Shown one piece after another: positions 23,861 through 30,334 of a DNA stretch of 64,000 nt. The stretch comes from an uncultured Clostridia bacterium. Its GTDB lineage: Bacteria > Bacillota > Clostridia > Christensenellales > Borkfalkiaceae. Every line of letters begins with the position of its first letter. Within the stretch, counting starts at the first letter, position 1. The notes below the pieces were generated by a model, which was not told the DNA's origin, did no database searches, and saw nothing but the letters and a program-made list of their open reading frames with translations. The DNA is taken from positions 70,663 through 134,662 of the forward strand of contig CANRDX010000001.1 of NCBI GenBank assembly GCA_947629485.1, in the 5' to 3' direction. The position numbers and the translations under genes were made by a program.

Positions 23861-24150
23861 TTTACAAATTTTGTTTTGCGGGTGGGCTACCGTGTCATTC
23901 CGAACCCCCAACGGGGGCGCCCCGCCCGCACGTTCCATTTTGTCGAAGGGCGGCACGAGCCGAAGGCGAAGTAGAGAATCCCCTAATACGAAGTCCATAC
24001 ATCGCAAAACAAAATTTCGTGAGGAAATGGGCTTTTACGCCTTCATTTTCTCGTCTTCTCGTTCGTTTCATCGGACAATAAGCCGAAAGGGTTCGGCAAC
24101 TTGGGGCGCGCAGCGCAGAAGCGTGGTTCTGCTCGCGCCGTAATTTGGAA
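23861..24150 (+). repeat. Structured intergenic repeat, copy A
   Basis: It fills the 353-base gap between smc and ftsY. It starts with TTTACAAATTTTGTTTTGCG (23861-23880), and the near-complement CGCAAAACAAAATTTCGT recurs at 24003-24020. The distal part has hairpins GCCGAA/TTCGGC (24082-24097) and GCAGAA/TTCTGC (24115-24132), and it ends in TAATTTGGAA. This copy carries about 55 extra bases after position 23915. No gene is visible in the gap. Confidence 0.85.
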
Positions 24151-25108: not shown

Positions 25109-25350
25109 TTCACAAATTTTGTTTTGCGAGGGGGCTACCGCGTCATTCCGAACCCCCAACGGGGGTGAGTGAATCCCCTAATACGAAGTCCATACATCGC
25201 AAAATAAAATTTCGTGAGGGGTTAGCCTGCTACATCTCTCAACTTTATCGCCCGCTGGACTCGGTTGTTCTCAAAGACAATAAGCGTGCGGTGGCGTGGC
25301 AAATGAGGGCGTGCAGCGCAGGGAAACCCTGCTCGCACCGTAATTTGGAA
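25109..25350 (+). repeat. Structured intergenic repeat, copy B
   Basis: It begins 3 bases after the ftsY stop with TTCACAAATTTTGTTTTGCG. The inner complement is at 25198-25216 and the distal hairpin GCAGGG-AAA-CCCTGC at 25318-25332. It ends TAATTTGGAA at 25350. It has the same orientation as the flanking genes. Confidence 0.88.
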
Positions 25351-25619: not shown

Positions 25620-25649
25620 TTGACAAATCTGCCCATTTTGTGATATACT
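25620..25649 (+). promoter_or_regulatory. Promoter of the candidate structured RNA
   Basis: TTGACA at 25620-25625 and TATACT at 25644-25649, 18-base spacer, extended -10 TG at 25641-25642. The expected start, 6-7 bases after the -10, is about 25656, which is the first base of the closing stem of the RNA. Confidence 0.75.
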
Positions 25650-25655
25650 AAATAT

Positions 25656-25848
25656 GCCAAACAATCATGAAAGTCCTTTGCGGGAGCACGGGCTTTTTTT
25701 GCATGACACATACTACCCTTGTGTGAATTTGACAGGACTGCAAATTCCAATGACGAGGGTAGGATGATTCCGTGCTTCATCATGATTGTTTGGCGACGAT
25801 CGGAGTTTGCGTTTTGTAGCGCGTCGGCTTCGGTCGGCGCACTTTTTT
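25656..25848 (+). ncRNA. Candidate structured RNA of about 190 nt (nested stems plus pseudoknot, own promoter and terminator)
   Basis: A perfect 15-bp closing stem pairs 25656-25670 (GCCAAACAATCATGA) with 25780-25794. Nested inside are P2 25683-25691/25770-25778, P3 25713-25722/25753-25762 and P4 25725-25731/25741-25747 with a 9-nt loop. Loop bases 25734-25739 (AGGACT) are complementary to 25672-25677 (AGTCCT) in the bulge between P1 and P2, a potential pseudoknot. A UUCG-capped terminator follows at 25816-25848. The ribosome site and start of the next gene come directly after it, so the element is either a free-standing small RNA or a terminating 5' leader (riboswitch-like). It has 6S RNA-like size and a long closing stem, but I do not recognise the 6S central bubble or any riboswitch core. 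Confidence 0.6.
25816..25848 (+). terminator. UUCG-tetraloop terminator of the candidate RNA
   Basis: GT(A)GCGC at 25816-25822 pairs with GCGCAC at 25837-25842. Inside, CGGC-TTCG-GTCG forms a tetraloop stem (25825-25836), then T6 at 25843-25848. It lies only 6 bases before the ribosome site of the gene at 25866. Confidence 0.7.
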
Positions 25849-25865
25849 ACTTTTGAGGAGGAAAT

Positions 25866-26072
25866 ATGTTCAGAGAGTATCAAGACGTCCGCATTAAGAG
25901 GAATTTGAAATATGTGAAGAGGCTTTCTTTGGTCGCGCTTATTTTATGTGCCCTTCTTATATATACATATCTTTTTTGGAAATGGTATTTGTATGAGGGG
26001 ATGATTTCAAATCCGAATGATCTTTCTTCATCCTATATCAGCCTTTTTGGGGTGGAGAGGATTTTTGGATAA
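25866..26072 (+). pseudogene. N-terminal part of an unrecognised membrane protein, probably split by a frameshift
   Basis: A 68-codon frame with a strong ribosome site (GAGGAGG 25855-25861). It has a basic start, one transmembrane helix (about residues 23-42) and then an outward-facing segment that stops at TAA 26070-26072. Reading shifts into the frame of the following gene at the T5-G4 tract 26044-26052. The shifted reading L-F-W-G-G-E-D-F-W-I-K-I-L-D-K-S-E runs directly into the next gene, which itself has only a TTG start and no good ribosome site. I therefore think 25866-26971 was one gene. A sequencing error in the homopolymer is as possible as real decay. No family recognised. Confidence 0.55.
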
Positions 26073-26077
26073 AAATT

Positions 26078-26971
26078 TTGGACAAAAGCGAGATCGCAGT
26101 CCAATACGGATCTTACGATAACGCTTTGTCTGATGAAATACAATGGGACATTCTCTATTGTTTGTTTTATTTTGAGTTCGCCTTGCTTGGTTATTTTTAT
26201 TCCAAAAGCGCTATGAAAAAGAGGGGATCCCGCAAGAAGCCGAATAAAAATGCGGAAGGGGCGAAAAAGACGGCTGTTTCACAAAGTCGAATAAAACAAT
26301 GGTGGCATGAATGGGTAGAACAATATTCCGTAGAATCAAAGCGAAATAATGATTTATCACATACCTTAACTCATATCCTCTGCATTTTTATTCCCATTGC
26401 AGTATTTGTTGTCATGATTTTTGCATGCCTGATCGCACTCATGGCGGGAACGTACGGAACTATTTCCGACGGTGTAAGATCGACTTCTTTTCATCTCGGT
26501 TATATGCTTCTTTCCCATCTCTTCCTTATTATTTCAAGCGGGTTTCTCATTCAAAACCGCGTTCTCATCAAGCGGGAATGGAAAACAAACCCGCCTCCGT
26601 TTTTGCTTGAAGAACAACAACAAGCGGCAGAGAAACGGCAGAAAGCGGAAGAGGAGGCCCAAAAGCAAAAACAAGAACGGGACACCGCAACTTGCAAAGT
26701 GCTCCTTGAGGAGTGCGGCATGCAGTTTTTCATCGAATACTATCCGCAGATCAAACGGCTTCCCATCCCAGATATCAACGTATCCGACCACTACTTCCCC
26801 GAGCGGCAAGTGCGCCTTTCCGCCGCGAAAAAAATTGTCGATGCGGGGCTGACAGAATGCGCATTGCACTATATCATCGAGACCTTCGGCGACGTTTTGT
26901 CGGGCGAAGTCATCGAGCGGGCAAAATCCTTATTGGAAGAAATAGAAAATAAAAAAGGAGAAACAAAATGA
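26078..26971 (+). CDS. Unrecognised multi-pass membrane protein (probable C-terminal part of the gene beginning at 25866)
   Basis: 297 residues from a TTG with no convincing ribosome site. It has three hydrophobic helices (about 24-42, 95-122, 138-160), a basic loop between the first two, and a long charged coiled-coil-like segment rich in Q, E and K (about 172-203). A C-terminal helical region follows, with E-C-G-M-Q-F-F-I-E-Y-Y and A-K-K-I-V-D-A-G. With the helix from 25866 it would be a four-helix membrane protein with a cytoplasmic tail. GC content and codon choice are lower than in neighbours, suggesting acquired DNA. It overlaps the next gene by 4 nt, so the two work as a unit. Function unknown. 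Confidence 0.6.
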   Translation: MDKSEIAVQYGSYDNALSDEIQWDILYCLFYFEFALLGYFYSKSAMKKRGSRKKPNKNAEGAKKTAVSQSRIKQWWHEWVEQYSVESKRNNDLSHTLTHILCIFIPIAVFVVMIFACLIALMAGTYGTISDGVRSTSFHLGYMLLSHLFLIISSGFLIQNRVLIKREWKTNPPPFLLEEQQQAAEKRQKAEEEAQKQKQERDTATCKVLLEECGMQFFIEYYPQIKRLPIPDINVSDHYFPERQVRLSAAKKIVDAGLTECALHYIIETFGDVLSGEVIERAKSLLEEIENKKGETK

Positions 26972-29138: not shown

Positions 29139-29383
29139 GTTCACAAATTTTGTTTTGCGTAAACGTGTCATCCTGAGCGGAGGCGAAGCCGAAGTCGAAG
29201 GATCCCCTAATACGAAGTCCAAACTTCGCAAAACAAAATTTCGTGAGGGGTTAGCCCTTCACATCTCTCAACCTTATTGCCCGCTGGACTTGGTTGTTCT
29301 CAAAGACAATAAGGCAACAGGGCTTGCCAACTTGGGGCGCGCACGGCGGAAGTGAATTCCGCCTAACGCAAGAATTTGGAAAA
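29139..29383 (+). repeat. Structured intergenic repeat, copy D
   Basis: It starts 7 bases after the ffh stop with TTCACAAATTTTGTTTTGCG. The inner complement is at 29226-29243. Distal hairpins are GGCAA/TTGCC (29313-29328) and GGCGGAA/TTCCGCC (29345-29363), and it ends AGAATTTGGAA. Confidence 0.88.
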
Positions 29384-29387
29384 TGGG

Positions 29388-29498
29388 TTCACAAATTTTG
29401 TTTTGCGAGTGGGTTCCCGTGTCATTCCGAGGCGCGCAGTGCCGAGAGAATCCCCTCAAACGAAGTCCAAACATTGCAAAACAAAATTTCGTGAGGGG
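29388..29498 (+). repeat. Intergenic repeat, copy E (5' half only)
   Basis: It begins TTCACAAATTTTGTTTTGCG and ends with the inner complement GCAAAACAAAATTTCGTGAG at 29476-29495. The distal hairpin half is absent, so this copy is the palindromic 5' module alone. Confidence 0.82.
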
Positions 29499-29577
29499 AT
29501 CGGAGCAAGAAGACCTGCCCCTGTTTACGGGGCGGGGGTCGAACGAAGTGAGACAGGTGGGGGCTATTCTTCGATCC

Positions 29578-30093: not shown

Positions 30094-30334
30094 TTCACAA
30101 ATTTTGTTTTGCGTAAACGTGTCATCCTGAGCGGAGGCGAAGCCGAAGTCGAAGGATCCCCCGATACGAAGTCCGAACACTGCAAAACAAAATTTCGTGA
30201 GGGGTTAGCCTACTACATCTCTCAACCGTGTCGCCCGCTGGACTTATCTGTTCTCAAAGACAATAAGCGTGCGGTGGCGTAGCAAATTGAGGCGTGCAGC
30301 GCAGGGAGACCCTGCTCGCACCGTAATTTGGGAA
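30094..30334 (+). repeat. Structured intergenic repeat, copy F
   Basis: It starts 9 bases after the rpsP stop with TTCACAAATTTTGTTTTGCG, and the inner complement is at 30182-30199. The distal hairpin is GCAGGG-AGA-CCCTGC (30301-30315), and it ends TAATTTGGGAA. Confidence 0.88.

Follow-up and report, generated by a model that had tools for sequence, protein, structure and literature searches.

The DNA analysed here (the window; 64,000 nucleotides from an uncultured Clostridia bacterium) carries on its forward strand a 193-nucleotide RNA element at positions 25655–25847, where our model R1 matches with 162.4 bits, the window copy itself being part of that model. All features of the element and of the gene behind it lie on this strand. 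Pfam identifies ftsY upstream of the element and ylxM and ffh downstream. A previous reading of the DNA letters without database searches (the sequence-only reading) had placed a structured RNA between ftsY and ffh, which is borne out by Pfam SRP54 domains. The promoter and the UUCG-capped terminator that it had called are both confirmed. The promoter (TTGACA-18-TATACT, 25620–25649) is of the sigma-70 type, matches 11 of 12 consensus positions and has an extended −10 box, and the transcript is predicted to start at about 25655–25657. The intrinsic terminator (25819–25848), which is supported by sequence and covariation, comprises a hairpin at 25819–25842 with a UUCG loop, followed by a T-run.

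The four stems named P1 to P4 in that reading are likewise all present. P1 joins 25656–25670 to 25780–25794 (15 bp; sequence and covariation), P2 joins 25683–25691 to 25770–25778 (9 bp; sequence and swap test), P3 joins 25713–25722 to 25753–25762 (10 bp; sequence and MFE fold) and the apical hairpin P4 joins 25725–25731 to 25741–25747 (7 bp). Two further pairings, both marked by covariation, involve the 3′ part of the element. In a pseudoknot, the apical strand GCAAATTCC, which overlaps the 3′ strand of P4, is partnered by a 3′ element, GGAGTTTGC. In an antiterminator, the 5′ strand CGATCGGAG, which overlaps this 3′ element and is also seen in the MFE fold, pairs with CTTCGGTCG within the terminator hairpin.

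The window copy has a predicted fold energy of −82.8 kcal/mol, compared with a mean of −53.9 for shuffled sequences (z −6.75; 0 of 200 shuffles as good). The opposite strand is also well folded (z −5.19), which is to be expected of long palindromic stems. The computed MFE structure contains a local hairpin (AAGUCC/GGGCUU) in place of P2 and forms the antiterminator, the terminator being absent. Despite this prediction for the single copy, the homologues described below back both P2 and the terminator.

A Shine-Dalgarno sequence, GAGGAGG (25855–25861), lies 7 nucleotides past the matched RNA end at 25847 and precedes the gene that the RNA is proposed to regulate. The first part of this gene is a small open reading frame (ORF) of 68 amino acids (25866–26072) that starts 18 nucleotides past the matched end and encodes a hydrophobic stretch. 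Its apparent continuation in another frame encodes 297 amino acids (26078–26971), and neither part belongs to a Pfam family. In the relatives L123 and L125 the gene is one longer ORF, which in L123 is a single frame of 351 amino acids at the corresponding place; the split in the window may be a true frameshift or an assembly error. The same succession (ftsY, RNA, gene, third ORF, ylxM, ffh) is found in another genome (G152, copy L322), in which the start of the gene differs.

The same region also contains a dispersed intergenic repeat of about 59–112 nucleotides (23973–24031, 25168–25226, 29197–29255 and 29445–29503, with more at 30186 and 30435). Its units are placed between genes around ftsY, ffh and rpsP (S16), together with companion units such as TCATGTTGAGCGAAGGCGAAGC. 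No link between this repeat and the RNA element was seen in the window.

Homologues of the element in Clostridia

A DNA search of 61 relatives recovered homologues both within the genus and from other families of the order, and several genomes had more than one copy. Copies whose match extended into the 3′ half were aligned by plain MAFFT, leaving out L141 (nearly identical to L138), the second tandem copy of L154, L135 and L136 (the same places as L167 and L164) and L166 (a false match to coding sequence). The resulting alignment of 32 copies, called A1, was not fitted to structure and is the basis of R1. The large genome searches with such models scored few candidates per genome under strict filters, so their copy numbers are minimum values and a missing match is weak evidence of absence; the model E-values are rough. 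R1 matched 87 of 396 genomes of the order (E ≤ 0.01), and a second model, R2, gave matches in 99 of the 391 class genomes searched (E ≤ 0.001). In a sample of the phylum, 1 of 299 genomes was matched (E 1e-5), namely that of the window. Homologues across the genus, order and class retain the upstream −10 box, P1, P2 and the intrinsic terminator. The weaker R1 matches follow the same plan, mostly over about 130–190 nucleotides and mostly with a P1 of the form GCNACAC...GUGUNGC.

Deeper scoring of 12 genomes chosen for having matches gave 6, 6, 7, 11, 14, 12, 17, 14, 23, 10, 6 and 1 matches, and thus up to 23 per genome, some of them in tandem. The window’s own genome has 13 matches, which correspond to at least 10 places once mirror hits are removed. 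All ten show the family plan on reading, and they fall into subtype A (the window copy and C31), subtype B (C11) and subtype C (the other seven). The window copy is somewhat atypical, belonging to a subgroup that lacks the AUA common beside P1; this triplet occurs within bases 13–24 in 276 of 350 copies, against 171 after shuffling. A pattern scan matched at least 119 contigs. The 80 whose names were listed are all metagenome-assembled, many from animal guts, and are labelled Clostridia, Clostridiales, Oscillospiraceae, Ruminococcus/Ruminococcaceae, Christensenella or Bacillota. One copy labelled Clostridia (L267) coincides in coordinates and score with a match in a genome of the window’s genus (G366).

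For the counts below, 416 matches were reduced to 368 by dropping duplicates and matches lacking a terminal T-run (including C36 of the window’s genome, which was later read), then to 350 by removing antisense mirror hits, and to 338 by omitting copies with less than 150 nucleotides downstream. The genome_contigs set consists of the listed matches to an exact 3′-element pattern, and its copies therefore overstate how well this element is conserved; A1 was drawn from other copies.

Tandem pairs less than 400 nucleotides apart number 18, and in 16 of them the gap is 48–124 nucleotides. Tandem arrays of two or three copies were seen at L369, L365, L373, L405, L510, L511, L478, L458 and L499, and these sometimes mix subtypes (by eye, B, A, B in L373). 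Unlike tandem riboswitches with a shared promoter, the tandem arrays of this family that were read appear to have a separate −10 box for each copy.

Comparison with Rfam 15 revealed no gathering-score match anywhere in the 64-kb window, and around the element nothing scored above 20.3 bits at E values up to 10. At family copies in 15 loci, no Rfam family reached its gathering score on a copy, and one copy of each of the three subtypes, together with the window copy, had no match above 20.3 bits. The sequence-only reading had not recognised the class, and these searches agree with it. No description of the RNA family was found in the open-access literature searched, which included passages of PMC11109978 and PMC8632094. 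The window RNA is one copy of what is apparently a large and undescribed family of Clostridia leader RNAs.

The main alternative named in the sequence-only reading was an unusual 6S RNA. The long hairpin-like shape and similar length do recall 6S RNA (RF00013), but the 6S covariance model does not match at the element and the genome carries a separate 6S RNA elsewhere (60 bits, above the cut-off). The 6S assignment was therefore rejected, and because the Rfam results extend to the copies in 15 loci and to all three subtypes, it is very improbable that the family represents either 6S RNA or an established riboswitch class in diverged form.

Covarying stems and a long-range pseudoknot

Alignment A1 reveals extensive compensatory change. 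Taken together, P1, the pseudoknot and the terminator have 97.8% of cells paired, and 15 of 33 pairs changed on both sides, whereas sliding the partner strand by 1 to 3 columns leaves pairing of only 32–41%. Within P1, 98.1% of cells are paired and 8 of the 13 pairs tested changed on both sides. The P2 zone was assessed by a swap test on 330 distinct copies of 333, in which a copy’s own pairing exceeded the swapped mean in 318 of 330. P4 is paired in 86.2% of cells, but its covariation barely exceeds that of slid registers, one of which has a higher covariation score than the true register (0.168 versus 0.147).

The conserved pseudoknot joins the apical strand GCAAAUUCC (25740–25748) to the 3′ element GGAGUUUGC (25802–25810). 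On A1 its 10 pairs have 98.1% of cells paired, 3 of them changed on both sides, and this pairing is stronger in the alignment than that of P4. By eye, an A-U pair of the pseudoknot is replaced by G-C in L162; in L138 the helix is one base shorter on each side with pairing kept, and the P4 hairpin as drawn is lost. The pseudoknot gives a weaker swap test, with a copy’s own pairing above the swapped mean in 225 of 296 copies overall and in 43 of 76 within genomes, partly because the 3′ element hardly varies. For these swap tests, 18 of 350 copies were unparsed, and removal of duplicates left 296.

A different pseudoknot had been proposed from the sequence, between AGGACT in the apical loop and AGTCCT in the first bulge. 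These two segments are indeed perfect complements in the window, but the pseudoknot that the family conserves is the one described above. In the four closest other copies, AGGACU and AGUCCU retain 4 of 6 Watson–Crick pairs, one copy having an additional G-U pair. Because this pairing is perfect in the window copy only, it was rejected as the pseudoknot of the family.

The covariation in homologues by which the sequence-only reading proposed to judge its RNA was found for P1, the conserved pseudoknot and the terminator on A1, and for the P2 zone in the swap test. A conserved structured domain, as evidenced by covariation and by the P2 swap test, lies upstream of the expression platform.

Mutually overlapping 3′ pairings and gene starts

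The antiterminator uses part of the 3′ element and the bases just before it, CGAUCGGAG (25797–25805), which can pair with a strand in the terminator loop and 3′ arm, CUUCGGUCG (25828–25836). This pairing is present in 96.5% of cells on A1, with 13 cells changed on both sides, and its covariation score of 0.202 compares with at most 0.092 for slid registers. A copy’s own antiterminator pairing exceeded the swapped mean in 271 of 296 parsed copies. Within single genomes, where the swap test removes differences between species, it did so in 63 of 76, and one genome (G605) gave a tie, 3 of 6. The antiterminator was found in 294 of 296 copies. In 284 of these 294 it shares bases with the terminator arms, and in 261 it does so with the pseudoknot. 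Mean predicted energies are close, −16.8 kcal/mol for the terminator and −17.2 kcal/mol for the antiterminator. The latter is predicted to be favoured in only 170 of 294 copies, and either form may be the default. Thus, the RNA has an intrinsic terminator between promoter and gene, and a covarying antiterminator whose formation excludes that terminator, which is the layout of an attenuation leader.

In 220 of 335 copies with distinct upstream sequence, exactly 5 nucleotides separate the end of the best −10 hexamer from the start of the model, and this distance places the predicted transcript start at P1. At the other end, an ORF of at least 40 amino acids preceded by a Shine-Dalgarno sequence starts within 60 nucleotides downstream in 245 of 338 copies and within 200 nucleotides in 295 of 338, compared with 12 of 338 and 90 of 338, respectively, on the divergent upstream strand (a control counted before mirror-hit removal). 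The median distance to the ORF is 23 nucleotides over the 290 of 350 copies that have one (before antisense hits were removed).

The frequency of Shine-Dalgarno sequences and start codons within 60 nucleotides argues that the RNA is a leader acting in cis and not an independent small RNA. Both had been offered by the sequence-only reading; promoter, terminator and a gene start directly downstream make its ‘terminating riboswitch-like leader’ the right reading, and those gene starts disfavour its small RNA. A stand-alone RNA acting in trans, for which the terminator would simply define the 3′ end, would fit the presence of a promoter and terminator, the tandem pairs and the 43 of 338 copies with no qualifying ORF within 200 nucleotides. 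However, the short distance to gene starts, and a covarying antiterminator, for which a free RNA would have little evident use, make this explanation improbable.

A recombination site or mobile-element end, such as an integron attC-like palindrome with an incidental RNA fold, might also place many long imperfect palindromes before unrelated genes. This is highly unlikely given the conserved promoter distance, terminator, antiterminator and Shine-Dalgarno spacing. Moreover, copies within the window’s genome differ strongly from each other, and just 3 viral contigs match the subtype-A pattern. In a separate scan of viral contigs with a 14-base P1 pattern, the matches listed were taken as chance and set aside.

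We conclude that the family is probably an orphan class of riboswitch-like leaders that act in cis, attenuating transcription and so deciding read-through into the next gene. The computed basis of this conclusion consists of conservation, covariation, mutual overlap of the 3′ pairings, their near-equal predicted stability, and an adjacent promoter and gene start; from these we infer transcription itself, the on/off direction and the existence of a trigger. If this model is correct, three pairings would compete at the 3′ end, namely the pseudoknot between the apical region and GGAGUUUGC, the antiterminator and the terminator. When the pseudoknot is formed, the antiterminator strand would be held and the terminator would stop transcription (off); when the pseudoknot is opened, the antiterminator would form and the gene would be transcribed (on). 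The direction of this switch is putative in both cases.

Bacillota riboswitches that terminate transcription share with the family a 5′ leader position, a conserved fold, an antiterminator/terminator pair before the Shine-Dalgarno sequence and start codon, and tandem copies. The new family differs in a three-way competition that includes a long-range pseudoknot, and it has no Rfam match in the copies searched. T-box leaders, too, hold a terminator/antiterminator switch in a long leader, a trait common to both, but neither the window nor the copies in 15 loci match the T-box covariance model, and aminoacylation or amino-acid target genes, a T-box trait, are absent from the commonest 25 Pfam families of each of the two downstream protein sets described below.

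Several subtype-A copies (L134, L164, L152, L158 and L127) contain within the leader a Shine-Dalgarno-like run, a U-tract, and an AUG with a very short frame, which is possibly a minimal ORF or merely a structural U-tract. Attenuation by an upstream ORF was considered for the family and set aside, as by eye such a frame is not general, and subtype-B copies such as L394 lack it.

Downstream proteins and candidate triggers

To describe the genes behind the RNA, we collected proteins from ORFs starting within 90 nucleotides and kept one per similar N-terminus (n = 243). By a crude rule, 67 of these are lipobox-like and another 74 carry a hydrophobic N-terminus, together about 58%. Among 74 window ORFs of at least 100 amino acids, an imperfect background because the region is mostly housekeeping, none is lipobox-like and 5 have a hydrophobic N-terminus. 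Pfam searches (E 0.001) were run on two halves of 121 and 122 proteins, and the commonest 25 of 60 and 25 of 57 families, respectively, were listed. BspA-type LRR_5 repeats occur in 17 of 121 and 21 of 122 proteins and the zinc ribbon Zn_Ribbon_1 in 5 of 121 and 6 of 122. Also present are Big_2 (3 of 121 and 1 of 122), EcoRI methylase (2 of 121 and 1 of 122), DUF4236 (1 of 121 and 2 of 122), the copper amine oxidase N-terminal domain (4 of 122) and S-layer domains (2 of 122). No metabolic pathway is common to these listed families.

An anti-phage role was also considered and rejected, as PADLOC, run on 122 of the 243 proteins, hit only a single protein for each of the 25 families listed. As a separate observation, residues 202–297 of the protein encoded at 26078–26971 form a C-terminal domain of about 95 amino acids that belongs to no Pfam family and recurs, at least in part, behind RNA copies L124, L126, L160, L163, L156, L174, L193 and L352; several proteins that share it have different N-termini.

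Since the listed families have no pathway in common, feedback by one metabolite seems unlikely. Instead, the varied downstream genes, rich in lipoprotein-like, exported and membrane proteins, suggest that the RNA responds to a general signal rather than serving feedback on a single pathway. The c-di-GMP riboswitches (GEMM) offer a precedent, since a genome can carry many of them and many of their target genes encode surface or exported proteins. The family resembles them in both respects but lacks their covariance-model match. Among 12 genomes that carry the RNA, a search for GGDEF domains gave no match in six, including that of the window (G000, 98% complete; the others are G034, G009, G621, G669 and G551), and matches in the other six, the assemblies being incomplete. 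Because only 6 of 12 carriers, and not the window’s own genome, have GGDEF matches, c-di-GMP is disfavoured as the general signal of the family.

The most likely option for the trigger is a small molecule or ion bound by the domain formed by P1–P4 and the pseudoknot, an assignment in which our confidence is about even. Next comes the same switch operated by a protein, either an antiterminator or an RNA-binding regulator. Dedicated RNA-binding antiterminators exist in Bacillota, and the absence of a pathway shared by the listed downstream families would suit such a protein. Binding sites of the LicT or ANTAR type, however, are short and seem simpler than the large domain conserved here, which makes a protein trigger rather unlikely. 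More speculatively, and with somewhat more doubt than belief, we propose that the family is a new riboswitch class, present in as many as 23 copies in a Clostridia genome, by which a single diffusible signal would select the exported and surface proteins that a cell produces.

If this proposal is true, these bacteria would have a signalling regulon carried by RNA leaders and not by a transcription factor. The family is a large orphan riboswitch candidate, present in about a quarter of the class genomes sampled, many with several copies. Many accessory genes for exported proteins in Clostridia are linked by it to possibly a single RNA-sensed input, and finding the ligand would open this signalling route.
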